64,000 nt of DNA, taken from NCBI GenBank assembly GCA_964036275.1, contig OZ038435.1, positions 9,048,310 to 9,112,309 on the forward strand. Reading direction: 5' to 3'. Position 1 is the first letter of the stretch. The number at the start of each line of letters is the position of its first letter. The translations under genes and the position numbers were made by a program. This document shows positions 47,241 through 63,674 of the stretch, piece after piece. The notes below the pieces were generated by a model. It was not told the origin of the DNA and made no database searches. It saw only the letters and a list, made by a program, of their open reading frames with translations. Source of the stretch: Litoditis marina. Lineage: Eukaryota; Nematoda; Chromadorea; Rhabditida; Rhabditidae.

Positions 47241-47264
47241 CTGAAATAATAAATATGATAAGCC

Positions 47265-47735
47265 TATCAGGACTCTGGTCCTTCCTGCTCTCATACTGTA
47301 GTTTGTAGTGTGATAACAATGTTTGGGTTTTATATGTTTATTAGGATTTTTGTGGAGAACAGTATATAATACAAGTATGAGTAGAGAATGGCTAATCTTA
47401 GTTATAGTTAAGCCTAGAAGAGGGGACGAGAATAGGGCGGTGTGACCGCATGAGTAGTGGTCACATCTCAACTGTGTCGTCTATGCCTGGGGGTCTCTTA
47501 TATACTTCCTCGGCTGTCAGCTGTCATGTCAGCTGTTGTGCTCGGCTCTCTCATATTAGTATGATATCTCATTGAGGTATTTCACAATAGGTGTTTCACA
47601 ATATGTGAGATATAAGGAACAGGCGCGTCTGGGCAGAGACCAGGCGCGTTCGGGTCAAAGTTCATGGATCGTCTAGTTGAGGGACCAACACATATATGAA
47701 CTGGATGTGTGGGGTTCTCAAGGCGTACATGATAT
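47265..47735 (-). repeat. Probable 3' LTR of the minus-strand retroelement
   Basis: On the minus strand a purine tract ending in GGGGGG is followed at about 47735 by sequence matching 63463-63380. A TATA-like box (TATATAAG, about 47500-47490) and an AATAAA-type signal near 47340 follow. The inner edge toward the EGF exon was placed near 47265 by eye; it is not confirmed by a second full LTR. Confidence 0.5.
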
Positions 47736-48202
47736 CCCCCCTCATTCAGATAGCTCGTCCTCGAGCGAGAATGAGTCAAGAATGAGAAAATCCTTCTTTG
47801 AACCTGTACGGCAGAGACCGGAGTCTGCATACCTGAGGCAACGGCAGACATAAGTGGCTGTTTTACAAATATATTGGCTGTGTGCGAAAAACATAGTGAT
47901 TGTTTTTGCAAGAAACATATGTGCCATTTGTAAAAACTTAATAGCCTTTTCGATATTCTCATTCTCTCTATCTGTGATAGTTAAGATTATTCTACTTACT
48001 AGCCATTCTCTCTTATTATTATTATACAATTGGTCTATGGTGCATAAATACTATAAATCTACCTAATCTACAGTTATACATAGTGAAAATGAGTTTGGAA
48101 AGCTTATACTATTGTCTTATACGTGGTGAAACCTAAAATACTAGATACACTATATATTATTTCGGAAAAATGTTTCTTTCTACTTAGATAGTTGTTTACT
48201 GG

Positions 48203-49802
48203 TTATGAACTTTCTTCTGTACTACTATCGCTTTCATCTAGGTTGGTATCTCCTTTCTCTTTAGCTGTGTCTTTCGTCGTTTCTGTTGTGGCATCGAAAT
48301 ATTTCTTTATCCTGTTGATGTGTACTTCTTGTACTTTCTTCGGACTGCTCATCAGTTGTAGTTTGACGTTTGGTCTGTTTATTGCAATGACCTCGTATGA
48401 TCCTGTCCACTTTAGGCTGAGCTTCGGTTTGCTAGCCTCCACTCGGAGCATTACCAGCTGTCCGATCTTCAGTTCTTTCAAACTTACTTTATTCTCTTTG
48501 TCATATAGTTGTTTTTGTATGACTGCGGCAGCTTCAATCATATCTTTTGCTGATTGTTTAGCACTTTCTAGCGCTTCCACCAAATTAGTTTTAAAATTTA
48601 CATCATAAAAAGATTGGTGGGGAATATTATGAATGATATGAGCAAAAGTTTGAGCTTCTCTGCCATGCGCTAGAAAAAATGGTACTGTGTTAGTTGTAGT
48701 TTGTACGCTGGTGTTATATGCGAAAACGACCAATTGGAGAAAGTTTGACCATTCTTCTTTTGTGTCGTGTACGAAAGCAGTGAGAGAATCGTTTATAACT
48801 TTCACTATTCTTTCGGCATTGACCATTAGCTTTGTGGTTGTATGCGGTGGTTGGTGTGTGTTCTATTCCTATTATTTTACATATCTCTTGAAACAGTTCA
48901 CTGCAGTAATTTGTGCCTCTGTCACTCACTAATTGCTTGACTACTCCATGTTTACAAAATACGTCGTTTAGCAGTGCTTTTGCCACCGTTTCTGTTTTCT
49001 GATCAGGCAATGGTGTGCAAAATACATACTTCGTAAATGAGCAAACAGTAATGGAAATAAATTTGTTTCCATTGATACAGATTTGGAATGGGCCGACAAT
49101 ATCAGTATGAACTCTTTCAAACGGATATTGCGGAGTTGGAAAAATTCCCATGGGCTCTGAATACGTGTCATTCCACGTGCTTTTGATCGATTGGCACGTG
49201 TGACAAGCTTTGATGGTTTTGGTTACCGTTTTCTTGATATTGTATCAATGATAGTTTTTGCGAATGTTGTTTGTAGTTTTCATGATTCCCAAATGAGCCC
49301 CCTCTAATGGATTATGATGAAAATAATTGGTTATCTGAACTTGTTGGTTTTCATCTGTGATGATCATTTTTCTCTTCCCTTGTTGTTTAATGTAAAGAAC
49401 CCCGTCATGTAAACAGTAGTGTTTGAAAAATTCGATTTCTTTGGTCCCTTCACAGTTTGTATTATCTCCCTCCAAATACTCAATAATCTTATTGTAATCG
49501 GATTTTCGTTGTGCTGTGCGTATGTCTTCTATCTTAGGTAACTGTTGTGTAGTCTTAGCAGATGTTATTGTCCCAACTAAAGGATATCTGCTCAGAAAAT
49601 CGCATAGGGTGTTATGACGACCTTCTCGATATTTGATGGTAATATCGAAGGACATAATTGCACATTGAAATTTAGCCAATCTACCCGTTAGGTCTGTTCG
49701 GTGTAGAAGTGCCTTTAAAGGAGCGTGGTCGGTTACAAGTGTTACTTTAGCTTGGGCTACATATGGATAGAAGTATTTCAAACCATATCCCAAGTGCTCC
49801 AT
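48203..49802 (-). pseudogene. RNase H and integrase portion of pol, split by frameshifts
   Basis: Frame 49802-49245 carries the RNase H end (LVTDHAPLKALLH, IKYREGRHNTLCDFLSRYP) and the start of the integrase zinc domain (HHNPLEGAHLGIMK). A frame change near 49230 leads to 49151-48714. There the core has D in VHTDIVGPFQ, D in LVSDRGTNYC and AYNHKANGQ where the catalytic E segment begins. A second change near 48830 leads to 48826-48203, with ERIVKVINDSL and the C-terminal SH3-like domain (LKIGQLVMLRVEASKPKLS). The tail is Asp/Glu/Ser-rich. The three frames together cover the module, but at least two indels break it. Confidence 0.88.
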
Positions 49803-49965
49803 AAACCATATCCCAAGTGCTTCTAACTCAATAATGGAATAGTTCTTTTCATACTTAGTTAAGGGTCGGCTACAGTAGGCAATTGGGTGAACTTCTTTGG
49901 TTTCTGAGTTTTCTTGTAATAAACACGCGCCAATTCCTAGTAATGATGCATCGGTATGTATTTCA

Positions 49966-51024
49966 TTATGGTTGGCCTATTCTGGGAGATGCTAAAATTG
50001 GTGCTGTGCATAGTTTCCGTTTAAGTTCTGTAAACGCAGTTTCTTGGTCTTTCTCCCAGCAGAATTTCGCATCTTTTAAAAGAAGTTTGTTAAGTGGTTG
50101 TGCTATCAATGCGAATCTTGGGATAAACCTGCGAAAATAGGATGCTGCTCCCAGGAATGATTTTACTCCTTTTGGGTCAGTTGGTGCTGGTAGTTTGGCA
50201 ATGCTCTCTATTTTCTTAGGGTTAGGTCGCGATCCTTCTCGACTAATTAGTAGTCCTAGATAGCTCACTTCTCGCTTTGCGAATTTGCATTTTTCTTTAG
50301 TGAGTTTCATACCGAACTGTTCTATTCTCTCAAAAACTTCGATCAGATCTTGAGCATGTTGTTCTGGTGTGAAACTCGCAATAATGGTGTCATCTATGTA
50401 TGCAAAGCAACATGCTTTCAATTCGCGAATTAATTCTTTAGCTACTGACAGAAAGGTTTGTGGTCCTTCTTTTAATCCCTGGGCTAGGACACAGAACTGA
50501 TATAATCCCAAAAAACAGGAAAATGCTGTCCTCTCTTTGTGTTCTGGTTCCATAGGTATTTGAAAGAATCCTGATTTGAAATCTAATGTGCTATAAATGG
50601 TTTTCCCTGTGGCTAAATCTACAATATCTTGAACATGCGGTATTGTGTATGTCTCGCTCTGCGTGGCTGCGTTGACTTTTCGATAATCTACTGTAAATCG
50701 ATATTGATCTTTGCTTGCGCCCTTTTTAACAAGTACAATTGGGCTTGCGAATCGACTTGTACTTGGTTCGATGATTCTATCTTTCAGCATGTGATTGATT
50801 TGCCGTTCGATTTCCGTTCGCTTCTCCAATGGAACTCTATATGCTCTACATTTTGCTATTTGCGCATCCGGGGTAAAATCTATGCGATGAGTTATATTTC
50901 CTCTATATCTACCTAGAAATCCGTCTGGTCCCACAAAACAATCTTCGTCTCTTTTGATAATTTTAAATAAAGTTTGTGTTTGTTCTTCATTGAGTTCTGG
51001 GTCTTCGATTGTGATGTGATCCAA
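49966..51024 (-). CDS. Retroelement reverse transcriptase
   Basis: The 352-residue frame has the classic Ty3/gypsy RT motif series: SPIVLVKKGASKDQYRF, TVDYRKVN, STLDFKSGFFQIPM, LAQGLKEGPQTF, catalytic CCFAYIDDTIIAS and VSYLGLLIS. It continues into the connection domain (KSFLGAASYFRRFIPRFA). It copies element RNA to DNA. The frame ends before RNase H, where the DNA around 49800-49825 has a short tandem duplication (AACCATATCCCAAGTGCT). Confidence 0.93.
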   Translation of the reverse strand: MDHITIEDPELNEEQTQTLFKIIKRDEDCFVGPDGFLGRYRGNITHRIDFTPDAQIAKCRAYRVPLEKRTEIERQINHMLKDRIIEPSTSRFASPIVLVKKGASKDQYRFTVDYRKVNAATQSETYTIPHVQDIVDLATGKTIYSTLDFKSGFFQIPMEPEHKERTAFSCFLGLYQFCVLAQGLKEGPQTFLSVAKELIRELKACCFAYIDDTIIASFTPEQHAQDLIEVFERIEQFGMKLTKEKCKFAKREVSYLGLLISREGSRPNPKKIESIAKLPAPTDPKGVKSFLGAASYFRRFIPRFALIAQPLNKLLLKDAKFCWEKDQETAFTELKRKLCTAPILASPRIGQP

Positions 51025-51137
51025 AATGTTGTAGTTTGTTGGATCTGACGGAAATGCTGGTAACCCTTTTGCTATGTCTACCTCGGGAGGAATGTAATTT
51101 ATTTCTCTTACTAGTTCTGTTTCTCCTTTAGTGTTAT

Positions 51138-51641
51138 CTACTTTTTCTTCCTGATCGTTGTTATGTACTGAAAAAACGGGTTCCCACTTTTGGTCTTTGC
51201 CAAGATAATGTAGGGTGGGTTTTCGTTTTTGGTCACTAATAGGGTTACTGTCACGTTGTATGTTCCTATGATAATGTTTATCTTACTTTCTCCTATTAGA
51301 TTCATTTCTGTTCCATTTGCTACTGTACCTGCTTTTACCGTAGACCGTTCAATGTTCAGATTTAGAATGTTTGCTAGGTTATGATTAATTATTGTGAGGG
51401 AAGATCCTGTATCAAACATGGCTATCATATTTCTATTTCTAATTTGAATTGGGATATATATAGGATTGGCTGTGGTTATCGTATTTGCTGTTACGTTATT
51501 GCATGATAATGCGAGAGCGATAGGTACGAAAGTAAGAAATTTAGTTGTTTTGTTTCCTATATTATTAGATGTGGATGGTGTGTTTGTTGTTTCTGTGGTT
51601 GTATTCTCACCGTTTTCGACTATCTCTACATTAGTTTCCAT
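51138..51641 (-). CDS. Retroelement aspartic protease
   Basis: The 167-codon frame has an acidic/Thr-rich N-part. The retropepsin active site MFDTGSSLTIIN is followed by ANILNLNIERSTVKAGTVANG and the IIIGTYNVTVTLLV strand expected of the flap-to-dimer fold. It processes Gag-Pol. It follows the membrane-anchored tail of the envelope-like region with a 16-base overlap and precedes RT in another frame, so at least one frame change separates protease from RT in this copy. Confidence 0.8.
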   Translation of the reverse strand: METNVEIVENGENTTTETTNTPSTSNNIGNKTTKFLTFVPIALALSCNNVTANTITTANPIYIPIQIRNRNMIAMFDTGSSLTIINHNLANILNLNIERSTVKAGTVANGTEMNLIGESKINIIIGTYNVTVTLLVTKNENPPYIILAKTKSGNPFFQYITTIRKKK

Positions 51642-54115
51642 CCGTCTTTTTTTGCGTATAGTTGATGTTGTCTTTTCATAACTACATTATGTTTGGGTTT
51701 TCTCTTTCGACAATTATGTACTATGAAGCTGACTGTGCTAAAGACTTCGTCCACTACAATTCTAATCAGGACATATTGATAATATATATAAATCAAAATA
51801 ACTATACTACTTATTACTAATGTAACTTTAATGATAGTGGAGAGTGCGAAATGACTTCCTGCTTCCTTAAGTAATTTAGCTCCCCCTTTTTGTAGGATTT
51901 CCTCTCCATTTTCTTCCATTTTCTTTACAATATTCATTGTCTCAGTACCTAATGTGTCTGTCCAACTTTCTGATTGTGCGACGTGTTTGTTTCGATCAGA
52001 ACTTGATAAATAATTGCCGTTTACCGAAAGTCTTCTCAAAATCATCCCAATCGAAGTGGATACTCCAGCTAAATCGGAATGAAAATAGGTGGGTAATTAA
52101 ACAAAATATCTTGTTGTTGCTGAATATGCGGTAAGTTGAGGTAAATTTTCGTGACATGAGTATTTCCCTTTGGTGTTACCCAGTTTCCCTATATGTCTTG
52201 GAAAACACTAAACGGTACGTGTGCACACTCTACCTCGGCACTACCTGTCATTAAATCCCTGGTTCCCGGTTGAATGAAATAGATTGAGTTGTCTATTCTC
52301 ACAGGTGTGTCGGCAAAACACTTTGAACCTACTTTGTGATGTAAATACACTTCATCTGCTAATACCTCTCTACACTTTGTTATCATAAGGACATCTCCTG
52401 CTGCGAGGGCCGTTACGTCATTGCGTTTAAGCAACATGCGTGCCGCCGCTGTTGGGTCAATGCTGGCGAGACTGCGAATAGTTTGGATTTGAAAGTTAGT
52501 CAATCCACAAATTTGACTGTACAAGAAATTGAAATCTTCTTGTATGGTCTCGTCAATTTTGATTTTTAAGTATTGCAACTTGACATTGAGTTCTTTATGT
52601 CGCATATCCTGTCTTTGCTCATGAGTTAAAGATGGATCGGAGTTTAGCGGAAAAGATAGGGTTGAACTTTTCTTGCGATGTATCTCGCAATTGGGTCTTC
52701 TGCGTTTGTTAACAACCCTTCTGCTTGAACTATCGAATGAGAAATGTGTGTAATTCCTCTTTTTCCTCTAATGGTTTTGGAAAATGGAATAAATCGTTGA
52801 TTAACATGTGGTTTGCCTCGGAATCTGACTAATCTAGTTTTATGTTGCTCAGTGTAATCACCTGTTTTTTTTCCGTATTAAAGACTTTTGAAGAGATATA
52901 TCATTTCATGTGAACGTCTTCTTCTTCATTTATTGTTGTGAGCAAAATTTTTCTGGTTTTGTTAATAGGGTGAGAATATAGGGTTTCGTGAAATTTTGGG
53001 TTATGTTTGAAAAGGTAAAGTGGATGGTTCCCCTCTAATTCTGGAAGTTGTAAAAAAAAACTCCGTTATCCATTGTAATACTATCTACCGGTAAGCACCA
53101 TTCTCTCAACTGGTCAGTGTTGTGCGTGATATTTTGATACGTAAAGGCCGTTTGGATTCCGTCTACTAAAATATGTTTTTCTGTGATGTACGCTATGTCT
53201 TGTGCTGTTCTTTCATACCTGCATATTCGGTTCTTCATGCTATTGGGTGTCCAAATAATGGTTCCATATTCCATCTGACAGTCTCCGGACGAAAATGTGC
53301 ATTTTCCCATATCCCCAAACTGGCCCATCACGTTTTTTCCTAGTCTTTTTAATGGGTTTCCCAAATATTTTTTCGACAACGCTAAAGATTGACAGAGTGC
53401 TGAATCGACTGGGGAGGTATAAGTTTTGTCAGAGTTCGTTGTGAAAATTATATGTAAGTAGGAAGATGTGCAAACTATTCTTGTTTTGTTATAACAGTGA
53501 TGTGCTTCTAGAAAAACGGGGCTTGTTCTCTCAGTGTAGATGTTAACTAGTGACATACCGAACGTCTGTGTATTGTTGGGTTCTGTATCACACTGAATTG
53601 GTTCGGGAAAAGCTATGGGCCAACAGGCCAACAGGACAACAGTTTCCGCAAAGATTGAATGTTGGTCCTACTTTGGCGTCGGTGAAATTTATGATGCACA
53701 TAATCATGCTAATTAAAAAAAGTGATTTAGTTACGGAGAGCCCGTGTGAACTAGGTCGCGATTTTTCTGATACATTTTCAACCAATACTGGGTTGATTCT
53801 CCGTACTGGTGTGTTTGAGCGTGTTCTGTGATTGGTTGCACTGTTATTTTTGTTATTGTGAAACGTTACCATTTTTGTATCACTTTCCCATCCTGATTTG
53901 CGGTGATCTTCTTGATTATCTTGGTGTGGCTCCCTGCTTCGTGAACGATTTTCTCTCCGATTGTCATAGTCCACTCTTACCCATTTATGTTTGTTATTTT
54001 CTGGTTTCTGATAATCAGCCCCGCTTTGATATCCCCCGCTGTTTCTATGGTCTCCCATGTTGTTTCTATAAGGACTATATCTAGCCCCGGGTGGTCGACT
54101 GTATCTATCTGCCAA
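51626..54115 (-). pseudogene. Envelope-like glycoprotein region, frameshifted, located between gag and protease
   Basis: Consecutive frames overlap: 54115-53588, 53631-53035, about 53050-52905, 52605-52189 and 52045-51626. The first ends with a signal-like segment (SLFLISMIMCIINFTDA) before cysteine-rich sequence. The second is cysteine-rich with N-glycosylation sequons (NKT, NIT) and an SGDCQMEYGTIIW patch. The fourth has SIDPTAAARMLLKRND and a Cys pair. The last carries a strong membrane span (STIIKVTLVISSIVILIYIY) followed by a basic tail (NCRKRKPKH), the layout of a type I fusion glycoprotein. Frame changes occur near a T-run at about 53050 and at a short tandem repeat near 53620. The family is not certain. 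The DPTAAAR and Cys pattern loosely recalls chuvirus-like glycoproteins captured by other retroelements; that comparison is from memory. Confidence 0.6.
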
Positions 54116-55461
54116 TCTATTTTGTTGGTAGGGTTCATTTGGTGATCTACCAAATTTGGTTGATAGTATCCTCTAGGCTGGTTATTCCAGGGCTCTGATT
54201 GGTCGCGTTCCCTATTGGTCCACGGCGTGCTCCAATCACGTCCTCTGCTACTACTGTAGCGTCTCGTGTCGTTTTGATTTCTTCTATAGGGGTCGAATCT
54301 TATCGATTCTTTTTGTTGATAGTAACGTCCGTTGGTTCCAAAAGTGTCATTTTGTCTCGGAAAAGTACGGTTTTTATAGTTTTCTCTGTCCTGCTCTTTT
54401 TGCTGATTTTTTTCGATTATTCCAGAAAGGGAATCTACAATAGTATTGACCTTGTTCACTAAATTATTTTCTTATTTTGTTTGATAGTCTAGTTTGAGCA
54501 CATCAAAAATGCGTTCCGCGTCAGTTACTAGTATGTCCATATCGGCGTTCAATGGTCCCAACAGCAACAATTTGTGTTTAATAGAGTCCAATAGCCCTCC
54601 TACGAATGAAGGACGTTTCATCGTCGTGATCAAAGTGTTCTTGTTTGGGTATGCCTCGTTAAGAGTGTTGTGAATTCTTCTGTAGAACATTGTAGGACTT
54701 TCTGTACTTCCCACCTTCAAATCCATTACTTCTCCTTGTACTTTGTCCAGATAACTAGCTGATGTTAAAGTATCTTTCAGTTTTGTTGTTATGAGTTGCC
54801 AATGTTGTTTTTCCGCGTCCGTTGCACCTTCATAAATTGCTTTAGCTTTCCCTTTTAAATGTATTGGCAAAAGTGTGCATAGTTTAGCTTCGTCCATACC
54901 TAACGCCGTACCAATTTCGTTGGAACTTTCAAAAAATTTCCGAATTCCTTTAGCTTGTTGATCTCCTTTGAAAACTGGTAGTTCCTTAGCGTACCCAGCT
55001 AGAGCCATGTTGTTCATTGAGCCAGCTGATTTATCAAGAACATCTACGAGTGGCTGTGCCATGTTGTCCGTATCACTATCGCTATCGCTAGTTTGTAGTT
55101 CTGGAGATATATTATCCCTTTGGTTTAACCTATTTTCTAAACGATCAAGGTCTTCTAGTTCTTGTCGTAGAGTTGGGGGTTGTGCTTCTCTCCTTAGGTC
55201 ATTAGGATCGTAGTTAGGTTCGTACAGTACCCGTCGAAGGTTGAGTAAGTCAAACTCTCGTTGTTGGTTTCGATTGAATAGTCTGAGCTCTCTTTCACTG
55301 ATGTTATCTAATCCGTTACCTAGTCCTTGTTCAACTATAGTGTTCTCTAGGTCTGTGTCTACTGATGTGTTCAAATCTCGGTTTCTCTCTCTAGGTGTGA
55401 AGAAGTCTTCTCTATTGTCAGAACGGTTTTCCGATTCGTCGTCTGAGCTCCAGCCGCTCAT
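53977..55461 (-). pseudogene. gag (capsid plus Arg/Gln-rich nucleocapsid-like region) with in-frame TAA
   Basis: Frame 55461-54472 (329 codons) opens with an acidic Ser/Asp/Arg N-terminus (MSGWSSDDESENR). It contains a retrotransposon gag-like helical region (LPVFKGDQQAKGIRKFF, LLPIHLKGKAKAIYEG, LKVGSTESPTMFYRRIH). A TAA at 54474-54472 interrupts it, but the same frame continues without other stops to 53977 through an Arg/Gln/Asn/Tyr-rich stretch (SSRGRDWSTPWTNRERD) that could bind RNA. No CCHC knuckle is visible. The stop could be decay or a readthrough site. An upstream in-frame ORF (55764-55582, Pro/Ser/Thr-rich, MSSLSEEGYIGSTG start) may be a leader. Identification rests on position and gag-like composition. 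Confidence 0.7.
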
Positions 55462-56671
55462 GCAATTGGACCCAGAATTCTACTCTTGGGTGAACTAAGA
55501 ACAAAATTCTAGGCTAAATATACTACGTTTTGTTTTTGTTATTTGTTTTTGATTTTTTTGCACTTCGGAAGTGTACCTGGTTTACTGTAGTCCGTGGCCG
55601 GTTCCTTCCGGATTGTGAGTCGACGTTTTTGTACTTTGTTGCTGTGGTTGGCTCAGGTGTGGACTCGGTGTATGTTGTGGGCTGCTTGTAGTTGTACCAG
55701 GTGGCTGGATGACTTTGGTTTTGCCCGTCGAGCCTATATACCCTTCTTCGCTTAGAGATGACATGTCTATGGAGGTGTCAGATGATTAGTGCCTTGGGGC
55801 AATAGTACCTGTATGTGAGAGCCTCCAGCATTTCTATCCAAACTGTTAGGTGATAAATCGGTTTTCGGCTCTCTTACATCTTGTTTCCACCTGTTGTTTT
55901 CCAACTTTGTCTTGTTCTGCTCTCGTCTTCTTGTTTGCTCACTGTCACAAGCTTCTTTGTATTGTTCGATTGACCGCCTTATACATCATTTGCTTAATCC
56001 GTCCTGGCCGGCCTTGTTTTGAACTTGCCGCTGCGGTCTGTTCGTACTGTAACCCTGGTAACTGTAGTTTGACCCTTCACGTGGCTCCGCCTACTTTGTC
56101 TTGGGGCAACTGTTGCTTCAGGCGTGCATATAAGCCTCGTTCGAAAGCTGTTTTTCATTAATGTGAGTTGTACGTCTCTCGTTCTCCTCTCGTCTTTCGG
56201 GCTCTCTTAGGGGAAGAAAGTCTAGGGCCCTTTAGTTCTTAGTGGGGTGGTTTGGGGGAGTTGAGTGGGTTTGTGTCTCAATTTCTCTAACTGTAGTGTT
56301 AGACACTAATAGGGTCGTTCCTACTGTTTTCTGGTCTACTTCTTATTCTTTGATTAATTCCATTAAGGAAAAATTGATAACGAAGTATTGAAAACGGGAA
56401 ATTGACCATAATTTCGGAAGAAAAATCTCCAACTTTCATCAGAAAAATAATGTCATTTTTCTTGTTCGAAATTCCCTCTTTCCTTATTGTTGGTTGCCTA
56501 ACCGCGTGATTGTAGTTCAAGTTGATATGTTTTGGATTTTGTCTTGTTTTCTTCTCAACTTATGTGAATATACCATTTGATTCTCGCTGTGTTCAAAATC
56601 ATGATTGTTTTCTAAATGGTCTTTCGAAAGAAAAGTTTGAGATCGTTTCAATCTGTTTTTATTTTGTTCCA

Positions 56672-59432
56672 GATGTCGGATTAAATTCACGGTTGGACCT
56701 AGCCAAATGGATCAAATGTCTCTGTGCACGAAAACGACTCAGTGGTGGTGTTCAGGCACGAAGTAAGTTCTATTTTTACTAAGCCGCTAAGATTCTAATC
56801 GAAAAAAAGAGAATAATTGTTGTTTCTCAAATTTAAAAGCTGCGAAAAATGAAACCATAAGGCTTGTAAAAGTTATTAAAAGCCGAATTTGAAAGATTTA
56901 CAGTTTCCCAAAAACCGGATCTTTTTCGCGTTCTGGTTATTGTTTATTCTTCAACTAGTATTGGCGACAGAGATGTGATTTTAGTATTTCTCCGTGTGTT
57001 TTTCACGAAACATAAAAAAAATTCTAGTAAAAATAGTGGTTTATAGCAATTTTACTTTGAGCTGGAGGTTGGAAAATGTTGTGTTCGGTTGTTTTTGTTT
57101 TCTGTTTTGTTTCTGGACATGCGTGTTCTAAAATCAAATCAAACTCTCGCAATAACTTGTAATTCCAATCAGTGTCGGTTGTCTGAAGTTGATTGACTAC
57201 ATACATTCGCATAAATTCTTTTCTCCCGTAATTGTAGCGTGTTCACTATTCAATGACGACCAAAGAGATTACTGTCTGATTTTTGCTCTTCGTTTTTCTG
57301 ACTATATCTCCTTAAAAGCACCTCCAAAAGTAGATGTATCTTCTCTACTATTCTTTGTCTTGCGTGGAATTTTCTTTTCTTTCTGTTCGTAAAAAGAGAT
57401 GATACGTGTTCCGAAGGAATCGTAGTTTCATAATTGGCGCGTTCAAAATTTTTTTTTCGGTGTTATTAGGGGTAGTTCTTGCTTGATTCACATTTGTTCT
57501 TGAGTCATTTTGTTTCTTATTTCTGATAAGAGTAAACGTTCTACTACTTCTTGTTTCCCATCTTTTTTTGTTGGTCAGAAGGAGAGAGAGAAAAAAATAA
57601 CCCGGATAAGGAGTAGTTTGGATGTGTGGTGAAAAGTAATTTCGAAGGAAAAAAAAAGAACAGTAATGTGTCAAAATTGGTTTTCGCGCTCCTATTCTAC
57701 CTTTTATCCTTTCGATTTTATACTTTCGATTTTCTAATGAGGAATGCTCGAGTGTCGTTCTGACTTTGCTACATCCTTTGTATAATACGAGACTTGTAAT
57801 ATTCCAATTCGCAAAAAATTTGGACCTGGGTAGAAATTAATTGTTATTGATTCGTAATCTTCACTTCGCTTCATAGCTTGCTCACTCATCTATTGTCATT
57901 AGCAGGCTGAAATCGTTTTTAAGTTTCTGCTATCCTAAAAATAGTAGTTTTTCTTCGTGTATATCCAGATGGTGCAGCCTACCTTGATGAGCTGGTGACG
58001 GCCACCCACTCTCTCTCTTTTTCCTTTCTTTGCTCTACCTCGATGGTTTTTATATTCGTTGTTTTATGGTGAGCGCGAAACTTAACATATGGGGCGGAGG
58101 TTTCTGTTGCTCATTTCGAACTCCAGCAATAGCCAATTTTAGGTTCGAAAAGAAACAAAGGAAACCCCCACAGTTATACGTGCATCTAATTTCGTCTACA
58201 ACTATAAAGTGTACCAAATCTCTGGTTTTCAACGAAAAACCATTTGCTTCGTCTAGGCAGACAGGCAGACAGACAACCGGACAGACCCTACACCAAGTAA
58301 CGTTCTCATAGGAGTGAATAGTAATTAGAGGTAGACCGAATAGGTTTGTCAGTGGTTCATAATTCGATTTATTGTTGTTATTTTTCAGCTGTCCCCGTGC
58401 AGATGCACTGGTGATCAGTCGGCCTTAGAAGTCGCCCGCACTGAGTATGAGAACGAGCTGGGCCTGATTCGCCATGAGAACGCTTCCCTGGTTAGCGCCT
58501 TCTCCGAGACTTTTTCGGCCTTCCCTGATCTGCAGTACTTTGCGTCGACCCCCGTGCCACAGGTTTTTGGTGTGCCGGTTCCAACCAGAATTCATACCGC
58601 CATATTAGAAGCCTTATGTCGGGGCGACCTGTACCATCTATCGTTCTATTTTGCACAGACAGGCCTACCGTCCGTAGAGGTCAAATTCTCCGCCGATGAG
58701 CCGTCTCTAACAGGCTGGTTGTGTTTTTTTACTAGTGTTTATTCTTTACTGTGCGGGTGCTTATTCTGTTGAAGTTTCTATTTTAGCAGAAAAACGGATG
58801 TGAGCATAAAAAATTTTAGTAGTAAAAGGTTATCTGGTATGTAACTAAAGAAAATTCCAAAATCGATAAAAGAAAGAAAACACGTTTGTGTACACATCAC
58901 GAAAATGAGTTCTACCGTATCCTACGGCCGTTTTCGTATATAGTGAACTAAGTTGAGTAGTGGAATCTTCATAATGATAATTATCTCACGCGATTATGTT
59001 GATGGTTAAACCAGTGGGTTGATAGGTACTTTCTTTAGTAGTTTTTGGAGCAGTTTTCGTCTCTTTTCAATTTGTCTCCAAAAATTTTATTACGGACCTG
59101 ATTATTATTTCCTTGTACTTCCCTTTTCAGTTCCCATCCGAATTATGGAGACCGAGTCATTCACATACAGAATGACTCCTTTAGAAACGTGTTGGACTAG
59201 TGGGTCGCTCGGTATTTGCCTTCAATACCCGTCGGTGTCTATTGTGGCCATGACGCCGAATCTGGCGATTCCGTTCTCAATCTTCCATTCTTTCAAAGCG
59301 TCCTCTGTTATCTCGATTGCATTCCAAGACATAGATATAACTTCTCCTCCCATGAGATCGTTTATTTCGGAGATGGAGTCACGCGGGGTGCCCATCTCCA
59401 CCTCAATTTCTCGTTTTTCGTCCGGGGTTGAG
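56672..59432 (+). pseudogene. Unrecognised spliced gene, copy 1 (tandem paralogue)
   Basis: Exon-like blocks: 56672-56761 (VGLNSRLDLAKWIKCLCAR), 57969-57994 (GAAYLDEL), 58389 to about 58720 (ARTEYENELGLIRHENASL ... PVPTRIHTAILEALCRGDL, YHLSFYFAQTGLPSVEVKF), and 59131-59432. In the last block the pyrimidine-ending codon frame reads HPNYGDRVIHIQNDSF, is broken by one TAG near 59193, then continues VGVYCGHDAESGD ... HEIVYFGDGVTRGAHLHLNF to TGA at about 59432. A competing frame in the last block (to 59474) is open but has poorer codon character. The protein family is not recognised. Predicted beta-rich end and helical middle. Its order of motifs is echoed by 59680-61649. Confidence 0.5.
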
Positions 59433-59679
59433 ATTCTTCCCTCGACGCCCGATGACGATGTAATTTGTCTTTGACGGGGTGGATTATGTGTCTATTTGTT
59501 CTTTATTTGTTGCCTTATTTGTGTTGTTCTCCTCACTGCTCTTGTTGCCCTCTTATTCTAGCGTGCTATGTTTTTGTTTTGTTTTTTTATTTGTTCTTTT
59601 CGCTGTGTGCAGACACTCGTCTGCCGCGTTCATGCTGTTTTGTTGCTTTGTGTGGACTTAAGAATAAATAATTTCAGAT

Positions 59680-61649
59680 GGAACCGCAATCTCCCGAAGT
59701 TCTGGACTTCTCCCTTCCGTCGTCTCCGGTTTCTGATCTGTCGACCAATGCTGAATCTTCGGGATCTGGTGTTTTCCGTGCCCGTCGGTCCACAGCGCGT
59801 CGGAATTTAATGCCCCTCTATTTCCGCAACGGCGACAGTCGGGTATCGACCGGTAGATTCTCGCTGCGTTTCCAGCTGCCCCAGGAGGTAATTTACTTTG
59901 ATTTCGGTTTTCTCTCACCTTACTTATCTTTTTACCTTGGGGTCTTAACTCATTCGTTATTTTGGCCAGAATGTTTGTTCTTGAAAAAAAATATTGAAAG
60001 TGAGACTATATTTTGAAAGAAAGACTGTTGGGGAAATTCTAATGGCGAATGTCAGCGAGAACTTCTATCTAAATGGTCATTATGTTGATGTGGCTATTTG
60101 TCTGGTATTGGTGTAGACATACTTTTTGTGGGCATACAAAATCCGGTCGGTAAAAATTCTTTTGGAAAATTCGTTGGAATTCTATTTGGGCAGGTTGTGT
60201 TTATATGGTATCATGGGTGAACAATAGTTAGTTGGGGGGTGATTCAACCGTACAATAGATTAGACTGGTGGCTTGTTGGTTATCATTCATCGTGAAAATA
60301 ACACTTTTTGACACCTCATTGTAGTGTATTATTTCTTTATTTTCTGTTAGTTTACTCTATTCATTTTGGGTCGTATTTGCAGACGATCACGCAGATTGTG
60401 GCCGCTCCCCTTGCCCAAGAACAAAAGAAAATGTACAAAGAGCAAATTAAGCTGTCGGAAGTACGTTTTTTGTGCTCTCATTCTCCTTCTCGTTTTCTCG
60501 TTTTATTTGAGAATTTATTCTCGGTTAGCCATCCCGAATGTTAGAAACTGCAATAAGCTTTTCTTTTCTTTTTCAGAAATTAGTTTATAGAAAGTTGCTC
60601 TTTTTGCTGGCTGAATAGGAATTTGTCATATTTTTAATCAAAATTCCCCCTTAAAAGAATTTTGTTCAATGACAACTCTTGAATGGTCTCAATTTTCCAT
60701 TCCTAACTTTGTTGTTAATCCCTTTTGTTTTCAGTACTTCTCCCGCGCTCTGCAGAGGGCCTATTGGTCGATCATGGGAGCCTATTAGGTCATATGATTC
60801 GGGGCGAGGGTGTCCAATATGATTTTCACCTCCGATTGAATAATACACCGCAGCTCGGAATCACCTTGAGGCCCAACGCCCCCGGCTACTTAGGTATGTT
60901 TTCATTCTGAATCGTCAAGTTTTCAGTATCGCGCTGAACTTTATTCCAATGATCATTGTCAAAAATAGTTTTGGAGTTCGAATCTCTCTCCTCCCTCCGG
61001 CAAAACAAAAAGATAAAGAAAAAAAAAACTTTAGTGATATTATATATGTTCTTAGTTCCCTATGTTGTATATATCTCGTGAATTGAATTCTTTTTTTTCT
61101 GTTTCCCATAAAAATAAAAAAATAAAGGTATTCTGCGGGAAAATCTAATCGAATTCTGGGAATGATGGAGTGTGGTGTCACTGTATAAACTGTAGAACTG
61201 TAGAACTGCTCGGTAATTTTCGGGTACATGAAAAGTTGTGTGATTTTGAGTGGTTGTATGATTGATACAGCTTCTGTTTTTCAGCTATGTCATTTTATTT
61301 TTATTTTTCAGTCGACTTGTACAATGAGTATGAGCCCATCCCCTTCACTGACGGTACTGCCCAGGACAGCTTGTCGTGGGATGCGAATTCCATTGCTCCC
61401 GTGGTCACGATGCCGAAAATCAGGGTGTTTGCCCAAGACCCTTCCGTTCATCTTCCCAAGTTTTTGCAGCAGTTTCTAGCGATTGTTTCGTTTGAATCCC
61501 TTAGCATTTCGGAGTTGAAGCTGAATCAATTCCTGAGAGCCTTGTCGACCGTTGTGCCAATTCGGGTCGTGAATACTCTTTCACCCCCGAGGTCTATGTA
61601 GTGGCCCCTACCTGTGAGGAGTTCTATACTTTCCCTCTGTTCGTGGTGT
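59680..61649 (+). pseudogene. Unrecognised spliced gene, copy 2 (tandem paralogue), at least two frameshifts
   Basis: It starts at ATG 59680 directly after TTTCAG. Exons: 59680-59886 (MEPQSPEVLDFSLPSS ... RFSLRFQLPQE), 60383-60460 (TITQIVAAPLAQEQKKMYKE), 60736 to about 60893, and 61312-61649. In the third exon the frame YFSRALQRAYW meets TAG, while another frame (GHMIRGEGVQYDFHLRLNN, ITLRPNAPGYL) carries on to the donor. The fourth exon reads LYNEYEPIPFTDGTAQ ... PKIRVFAQDPSVHLPKF, then changes frame near 61545 to EYSFTPEVYVVAP ... TFPLFVV and TAA 61647-61649. Codon choice is coding-like in each used frame. YDFHLRL/ITLRPNAPG and YSFTPEVYVV resemble blocks of the preceding copy. Function unknown. 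Confidence 0.5.
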
Positions 61650-63379
61650 AAAAGGATTGTGTATCCTTTACCACTAATCCGATGTGTCTTTGACGTTCCG
61701 ATTTTTGGTTAAGAGCTGTGTCTCTGCTTGCCTCCTGTCTTTCGTTGTTCGTTAGACATTTCGAAACAGTATTGTTAGATAACTGATTTCGTCTGTTCTT
61801 ATTCGAGGAATTGTTGACTTGTTGTTTCCGATAGTCAATATGACTACTCGTCTGGTACTAGTTTCGAAAAATTTTGAGTTTACTCTGTGGACCAGGCTCC
61901 CTGTTGTTGTTTCCAGTAGCCTTGTATTTTTTTGATACTGACTATTGTTTCTGATCTCGTAATGAACTATTGTGCCTATAATGTTCTTGGTGTTTTCGGA
62001 AGCCACTAATCTATGTTCCATGCGAATAAGAGTTGATTTTGGGCAAAATACGACAATTCGTTTTGTATTCCTTCTGATCTTTGAATATTGCACAGAGAAG
62101 AAAGGAAAAGCTTTGTTTTAGAAGGTTTCTGAAGTATTTTTCCGGTCAAAAGGCGAATTTTGTGGACTGAGTTAATTTTGGGATTGATTTCCACCCAATT
62201 ATGTTTACACACACGCTGTACTTCTTGTAAACCTATTTGGGCTACCTCGTTATTATAACTTAAATACTGTGGTTTTTATTTCTGAAAGAGTAACTATGTG
62301 ATTCTTTTTGTAATCGTAGAATAATATTTCGGGTGTTGATTTTCACTGTTCTTTCCTTATTTTTGGTGAATTCGTAAAACTTGTTTCGGACGTCTCTGAA
62401 AGTTCTAGATTTCGTTTTTGTGTGCACTTTTCATGGTGGATATCCTCGGCCTTACTCAACCAGTTTTTCGTATACGTTTTAATTGGCGACATGAGTTCCC
62501 TATGGCGTTCGGTTTCTTTGAGGTGATTAATACGTGATCTATTTGTGCTATACACGGTAATTATCTGTACAGTTCACGGACGTTTCACGGACGTTTCATG
62601 GACTAGTTTCGTTTGAATTAAATGTTACACACTAATTTTTTTTTTAGTTGTACCTCTCTTGTACTTTATATATTTCAAATGTGCTCTACCAAGTTAGTTA
62701 TTCGGTTGTAGTTCTCTTTATCAATATCAGGTCTCACTCTTCGCCTAATATCCTCTCACCATGACCGACGCCCATGCCATGGGAACTCGTCGCCCAATTT
62801 TAAATTCGTGTTGTCGTTTATAATTCATCTAGATACTTTGTCTTTTATTTGCTCCTATTCCCCGGAACTTTTATCATTTGAAACATTCGAGAAGTTTTGT
62901 TTTTCATTACTCTGTTTTCTAGTATCTGCCATAACTTTGCCTAATTGGTAACCATTTAGCTAGAGAAAGTATTCACTGTCAACTGGGTATTTTCTTGCAG
63001 GACTATTCCCATTGTGTAGTCATTACTTGCTCAAAATGAAAATGTTCTACCTCGAAAATTATAAATTCGTGTAGTTCATTCTGATATTCCCTATAAGTGG
63101 TCACTTTTCGTATTCCGTGGGAATCGGTTCGGCAATTCTCGTACGAATCGTCACGAAGCACGCGTAAAACGATATATAAGGATTTTGACTTCTATCCTAA
63201 TTTATACTTTCCTCTTCTTTTTAATTTTATTTTTTATTTGACACCTTCTCTCACTCCTGTTTGGTCCGCTGTATACTTCTTCTTCTTGTTATTCGTTTAC
63301 TTCCTCATCCTCTTCGTCTCTTCAGTAGTCCTTCGTAGTGCATGCAAAACTATCCTGGTCCGGTAGGACTGAGGTTTGC
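61650..63379. other. T-rich interval with no supported gene
   Basis: Strongly T-rich on the plus strand, no splice-linked frames. It lies between the second tandem paralogue and the LTR fragment. Could be intron or 3' flank. Confidence 0.4.
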
Positions 63380-63463
63380 TTCGGGTCAAAGTTCATGGAT
63401 CGTCTAGTTGAGGGACCAACACAGATATGAACTGGATGTGTGGGGTTCTCAAGGCGTACATGA
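63380..63463 (-). repeat. 84-bp fragment matching the outer end of the retroelement LTR
   Basis: This stretch (beginning TTCGGGTCAAAGTTCATGG, ending GGCGTACATGATA on the plus strand) repeats 47651-47734 with about one mismatch, in the same orientation. The match stops abruptly on both sides. It is either a truncated 5' LTR of the 47-56 kb element, separated by later insertion, or a fragment of another copy. Confidence 0.75.
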
Positions 63464-63674
63464 TAAGCCTCTCGAATATTTTTCATTCACGATTCAACGA
63501 AACATCAACGAATCACAATGAATATATTAGAATCACGGAAAATATAAAATTATTACCGAAGAGCGCATATAAACTTTACTGTCATTCTTTCGAACACCCC
63601 ACTATTGACGCGTAAAACCAGGACAACAGTGCTGTCATTCCGAAAAGCCGTAGGAAACAAATGCTTTACAGCTA

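Follow-up and report, generated by a model that had tools for sequence, protein, structure and literature searches.

A class III-type fusion glycoprotein gene between gag and protease in a Ty3/gypsy retroelement lineage of nematodes

The element at the locus

We examined 64,000 nucleotides of the nematode Litoditis marina (assembly GCA_964036275.1, contig OZ038435.1, positions 9,048,310 to 9,112,309, forward strand; this whole stretch is called the window below), which carry a decayed retroelement with its glycoprotein (env) gene ahead of the protease. Stop-to-stop frames and Pfam matches give the order gag, glycoprotein, protease, reverse transcriptase (RT), RNase H and integrase on the minus strand from 55479 to 48203 (Table 1). 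An earlier note, made from the sequence without database searches, had described gag, then a Cys-rich region with sequons, a signal-like segment and a membrane span, and only then the enzymes, and both frames and Pfam bear this out. We think it likely that the element belongs to a nematode Ty3/gypsy lineage in which a fusion glycoprotein of class III type separates gag from protease, all of them encoded in one continuous Gag-Env-Pol frame.

Table 1. Features of the window copy
Feature	Position in window	Strand	Evidence and remarks
gag, capsid part	54472..55479	-	335 aa to first stop; placement and relatives
gag tail, basic, Asn/Arg-rich	53588..54471	-	two frames in window copy; L032 and L034 have the homologous frame open
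Hydrophobic segment resembling a signal peptide, where Gag meets Env	53684..53740	-	hydropathy 1.84 in the homologous frame of L032
Glycoprotein block, whole	51788-53740	-	frames and Pfam
Glycoprotein ectodomain, N-terminal half, Cys-rich, with sequons	53035..53667	-	at least 31 own-genome matches
Furin-like site RGKR	52758..52769	-	read from sequence; same site in L032-L036
Class III fusion core, Monjiviricetes_fusion PF24664	52204..52590	-	E 9.6e-20, 70.5 bits, cut-off 27
Glycoprotein transmembrane span	51788..51847	-	homologous segments of L032-L036 and L039 with hydropathy 2.5-3.2
Second, weaker hydrophobic segment directly before protease	51483..51539	-	seen in L032, L034, L035, L036, L052 and L057
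Aspartic protease	51219..51452	-	PF13975, E 5.5e-7, above cut-off
Reverse transcriptase and RNase H start	49966..51282	-	PF00078, E 2.1e-31
RNase H and integrase	48203..49976	-	three frames in window copy; PF17917 4.5e-24, PF17921 0.0026, PF00665 6.2e-15

The window gag has no significant Pfam match, and its frame is so named because of its position and its relatives; one of these, the gag-env protein P0001, matches Retrotrans_gag (PF03732) at E 0.0011, below the cut-off. Segments comparable to the signal-like one are present in L033, L034, L035, L036, L039 and L071 (L numbers denote loci), and RNase H and integrase share a single frame in L005, up to the end of that locus. The second segment before the protease, signal-peptide-like as well, is kept in several subfamilies and missing from a young one (L071).

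The order of protease, RT, RNase H and integrase is that of Ty3/gypsy elements. The RT is nearest to Ty3 among PDB sequences, where 4ol8 (the Ty3 RT, 6e-55) and 7q5b (Ty3-G, 5.6e-54) head the 60 best of 109 matches. No BEL-type family is among the Pfam matches; the comparison covered Pfam families and PDB sequences.

In the window copy the glycoprotein block is split over several frames and interrupted by stops, so that this copy must be decayed. Stops and frame changes disrupt gag, env and pol alike, and the frame through the block is intact in relatives only. A repeat search, blastn and the flanks of relatives revealed no LTRs (long terminal repeats) for this copy. The earlier claim of an LTR retroelement with env before the protease therefore holds for order and element type, but the window copy itself shows no LTR and a broken block. 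Stretches compared within 47264-63211 are 91–97% identical to C3:11345454-11361897 on the same contig (about 16 kb including the element), so that the window copy is probably part of a segmental duplication; the copy at the other place retains a 2162-codon frame. An 86-bp tract with abrupt ends occurs twice (98.8% identity), at 47649-47734, not far from where the element ends in 3', and at 63380-63465, 16 kb away. The 261.8 Mb assembly contains 765 exact SL1 22-mers, SL1 being a nematode leader, and 0 of the reversed control.

Gene order and shared frame in relatives

In the same genome RT was matched at least 99 times, gag 50 times, the fusion core 66 times and the N-terminal half of env 31 times; all of these counts are lower bounds (for RT, 96 of 285 candidates were scored). 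PF24664 was detected at 55 places, 54 of them above the cut-off (in one case only when its neighbours are included), and a scan of 14 control genomes for this family gave 0 matches.

These 55 places, among them the window copy, were set against 65 of the 99 RT matches. An RT lies downstream on the same strand in 45 of the 55, mostly about 1.3 kb away. For 23 env matches the open reading frames (ORFs) of env and RT have equal length, and the frames agree in every one of these 23 cases; 18 of the ORFs comprise at least 1900 codons, and the longest frame with env and RT reaches 2734 codons. Such frames exclude a chance arrangement. The ORF length of gag equals that of env and RT in nine copies; one of the nine, C4:27.6M, has a stop within its gag match.

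Judged by the several frames of the window copy alone, the glycoprotein block could be a separate nested insertion with boundaries of its own, and the earlier note had named this as an outcome that would speak against its view. It seems extremely improbable, given that env stands upstream of RT in 45 of 55 matches and in one frame with it in 23, and that env and protease occur in a single protein in other species. We rejected it since the frame shared by env and RT in relatives makes the glycoprotein a part of the element.

The note had also asked about intact relatives that lack the region. The profile built from the A2 set of relatives matched seven of eight window-lineage loci (L071 is itself a profile member). 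It found no env within 1.5 kb of the RT in L029, and L026 seems to have lost most of env by an in-frame deletion, the remainder being open; a more distant element, L061, lacks env as well (see below). The shared frames of the other copies stand nevertheless. Gag was also matched in three ORFs some 440 codons long (at C4:14922041-14923039, C1:15740093-15741091 and C4:20233230-20233847, two of the three matches crossing a TAG); these have no env or RT match nearby among the matches listed and are possibly gag-only copies.

A young subfamily

A frame of 2467 codons was found in four copies of a young subfamily. Two of them are bounded, C4:38749625-38761037 and C4:51546308-51557723. Each is 11.4 kb long, has two 266-bp LTRs without a single difference between them and with TG...CA ends, and is flanked by target duplications of 4 bp (ATGT and GTTG), as is typical of Ty3/gypsy elements. 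Some copies are therefore recent. In C4:38749625-38761037 the frame begins 1.37 kb past the 5' LTR and stops 2.1 kb before the 3' LTR; its env displays a signal-like segment, RSKR, a PF24664 match (1.9e-11) and a membrane span, followed by the protease in the same single frame. Downstream of pol in this subfamily, the 2.1 kb that precede the 3' LTR contain an open frame of 200 codons (L067:1454-2053), so that an accessory product is possible.

Class III homology and selection

By its sequence, the env block is of class III type. Besides the PF24664 matches described above, the window core matches herpesvirus gB (PF00606) at 3.6e-7, below the cut-off of that family. All seven A2 relatives match PF24664 and six of them match gB at E<=0.001. 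Of the 40 distinct PDB sequences that the A2 profile retrieved at E<=1, 37 are named glycoprotein B and three GP110/BALF4, the gB of Epstein-Barr virus; the best E value was 1.2e-5. A profile is needed here, since one Env alone gave no match to PDB sequences at E<=1. The cysteines are conserved among env relatives, and an R-x-K/R-R motif is present in 12 of 14 relative copies, although its position is not constant (RSKR in L071, RTKR in L072 and L077).

Selection was assessed in six pairs among five copies, with the N-terminal half of env, the fusion core and the protease as the blocks compared. In the five divergent pairs, pN of the fusion core was 0.075–0.23 and pS was near saturation (0.69–0.80). 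Because of this saturation most dN/dS values are unusable, and the evidence lies in the contrast of pN and pS. The protease block of the same pairs had a pN of 0.19–0.43, in each pair higher than that of the fusion core; the N-terminal half of env (0.13–0.34) is less conserved than the core and about like the protease. The recent pair L035-L036 gave a pN/pS of 0.03–0.19 over the env blocks. The env block is under purifying selection, and the check proposed in the earlier note, whether relatives keep an open, selected frame, turns out positive by this contrast and by the 23 agreeing frames.

Structure prediction was less informative. AlphaFold2 models were of low confidence (P0001 mean pLDDT 34.0, core 54.9); the core model shows one long helix followed by strands, and Foldseek found no fold match for it in PDB at E<=0.001. 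The comparison with class I-III fusogens suggested in the note thus succeeded by profile, with class III as the outcome (PF24664, gB), and failed by structure, which has to be counted against our interpretation. Fusion as such is not readable from sequence, and in view of the weak models the block could be a membrane glycoprotein that derives from a fusion protein but now serves budding or particle anchoring without being fusogenic. We consider this unlikely because of the conserved cysteines, the selected fusion core, the frequent furin-like motif and the profile matches to gB only.

Other species and a second lineage

Protein searches returned 2, 4 and 3 proteins from 7684, 7681 and at least 7999 candidates scored, six distinct ones overall, and no exogenous virus as a source of env was among them. 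The named relatives come from Oesophagostomum dentatum (one) and Ostertagia ostertagi (four); a trait of Caenorhabditis was not seen. P0001 (from ENA) combines gag, with its match below the cut-off, and env in a single protein of 1106 aa. In P0002 from O. dentatum, a protein of 1593 aa, env is joined to protease, RT, RNase H and integrase. P0003-P0006 are from O. ostertagi, and in P0003 env is followed by a protease match below the cut-off.

A second lineage in L. marina (B; L072 and L077) has an RT about 31% identical to that of the window. One frame encodes gag, the protease and, between them, a glycoprotein that has RTKR and a membrane span; the gag shows a CCHC-type motif (identified by eye). 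Its glycoproteins match the A2 profile at E 1.2e-21 and 6e-21, and hhalign aligned lineage B with A2 over 125 columns (probability 96.5%, E 7.1e-10). By these sequence comparisons, lineage B carries a homologous env in the same slot, between gag and protease. A TAG closes the gag-env-protease frame, and RT follows in the +1 frame. The change of frame lies at L077:3489-3505 and at the homologous place of L072, the same in both copies, which suggests a programmed +1 shift between protease and RT.

In L061 (RT about 36% identical), a CCHC gag leads directly to the protease (match below cut-off), and the A2 profile found no env (best E 0.17). An RT tree separated A (the window lineage), B and four rows of env-less type, among which env was checked in one, L073/L061. 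A and B stood against the rest with 79/81 support and long branches, so the tree fits either one or two captures of env.

Expression of the glycoprotein

The earlier note had left the choice between splicing, frameshift and one large polyprotein; the polyprotein fits best, with splicing as its main rival. Flaviviruses encode a polyprotein with capsid, internal signal, glycoproteins and then the enzymes. The logic proposed here for the element would be similar, with an internal signal between the capsid part and the glycoprotein and the enzymes last. We infer cleavages and topology as follows. The full-length RNA would be translated as a single Gag-Env-Pol polyprotein. Gag would remain cytosolic, while the internal signal peptide would send the ectodomain into the endoplasmic reticulum (ER), where signal peptidase would sever Env from Gag and a furin-like protease would cut the ectodomain. 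One membrane span would return the chain to the cytosol, so that protease, RT and integrase would be cytosolic and could then be released by the protease. Env, if fusogenic and infectious, would serve spread from cell to cell or horizontally.

Three observations favor a polyprotein with internal signal. There is no Met codon upstream of the signal segment in the 140 (L034) and 124 (L071) codons of the env frame, that is, two of the seven copies examined have no Env start codon of their own. No motif resembling a 3' splice site was found in L071 from the gag tail to the protease (scan without shuffle control). Finally, a simple insertion score was strong for the main span in three copies and poor for the second segment in L034 and L035.

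Env of errantiviruses is made from spliced RNA. In the nematode elements Env might likewise come from a spliced subgenomic RNA, or env might be removed from the RNA as an intron without change of frame, leaving Gag-Pol; an unbroken frame is compatible with both. Cer1 of C. elegans uses splicing for CERV (PMC10309623), and motifs like 3' splice sites occur near the signal region of L034, L035 and L036, again without shuffle control. Such uncontrolled scans are weak evidence in either direction, including the negative one in L071. In L034 and L071, which have no Met before the signal segment, the start codon would then have to come from an exon further upstream. Splicing is therefore an alternative to be taken seriously, although we regard it as clearly the less probable one.

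Several further points have to be set against a polyprotein or against the wider interpretation. Met codons precede the signal segment in five of the seven copies, in L033 right at the segment. The second hydrophobic segment before the protease of some subfamilies, if it spans the membrane, would leave Pol on the side away from the cytosol. Gag and Env in equimolar amounts would be unusual, and the polyprotein is a prediction from the DNA. Ten of the 55 env matches have no RT row within 6 kb downstream among the RT matches listed. Like the window copy, the copies C4:27.6M, C4:32.9M and C16:18.16M of nearer subfamilies have no LTRs, here in flanks of 2.3–4 kb. In lineage B, hmmscan of two proteins gave no PF24664 at E<=0.1; the place in L072 had scored 27.5 bits in the genome search, just above the cut-off of 27.

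On balance, we lean towards the view that a third retroviral genome plan arose in nematode Ty3/gypsy elements. In it, Gag, Env and Pol would be parts of a single polyprotein that uses an internal signal peptide, a solution reached independently by flaviviruses; the plan would be so old that two deep RT lineages have it in common, and it would have gone on spreading until recently.

Comparison with known elements

In errantiviruses, env follows pol. Like the window lineage, these elements (such as gypsy of Drosophila) combine a Ty3/gypsy pol with a captured viral env. The window env, in contrast, stands before protease and RT, and its significant Pfam and PDB matches are Monjiviricetes_fusion and gB, not the baculovirus F type. 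Anakin resembles the window lineage in its env of chuvirus type, chuviruses being members of the class Monjiviricetes; it differs in being a BEL/Pao element and in having an insect host. Anakin and Tas are the nearest precedents for an env of chuvirus or gB type.

Errantivirus env is derived from baculoviruses (PMC13269885). Anakin comprises mosquito BEL/Pao elements with a chuvirus-type glycoprotein (PMC7642597). Tas of Ascaris has an env that is weakly gB-like (PMC9094657), while PMC7642597 assigns the sources differently; it belongs to BEL/Pao, and its env is downstream of the polyprotein (PMC7642597). Atlas virus, a BEL/Pao element of hookworm, encodes Gag, Pol and Env, in this order, as one polyprotein (2828 residues, with neither stops nor introns) between identical LTRs of 271 nt (PMC9094657). 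As an LTR element of nematodes with a single polyprotein, it is the nearest precedent for this mode of expression, but its Env is a class II, phlebovirus-like protein at the C-terminus, after pol, whereas the window lineage is Ty3/gypsy and has an Env of class III type before the protease.

Cer1 is a nematode Ty3/gypsy element too, and the earlier note had named a long interval between its gag and protease as a parallel. Passages of PMC10309623 on Cer1 do not support this: the polyprotein numbering of Cer1 reaches 2272, no glycoprotein is described, and the extra ORF after pol belongs to CERV. We therefore rejected a shared trait of the Cer1 lineage. The same paper sets aside a similarity to gypsy Env that had been suggested before.

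Among the titles and abstracts listed by the searches, mostly open-access and with few preprints, we found no description of env between gag and protease. It is placed after pol in Atlas, Tas, Roo, Cer-7, simple retroviruses and rotifer elements (PMC10309623, PMC9094657, PMC7642597, PMC13269885, PMC5408684), and from that position Env can be produced apart from Gag and Pol. The present order is real, under selection and found in recent copies, with a mechanism that is a prediction. The position of Env in the middle of the frame, selected and kept in young copies, suggests that the particle assembly of a reverse-transcribing element can span the ER membrane. The gene order offers a direct test of fusogen capture and of the movement of nematode gypsy elements between cells or hosts.
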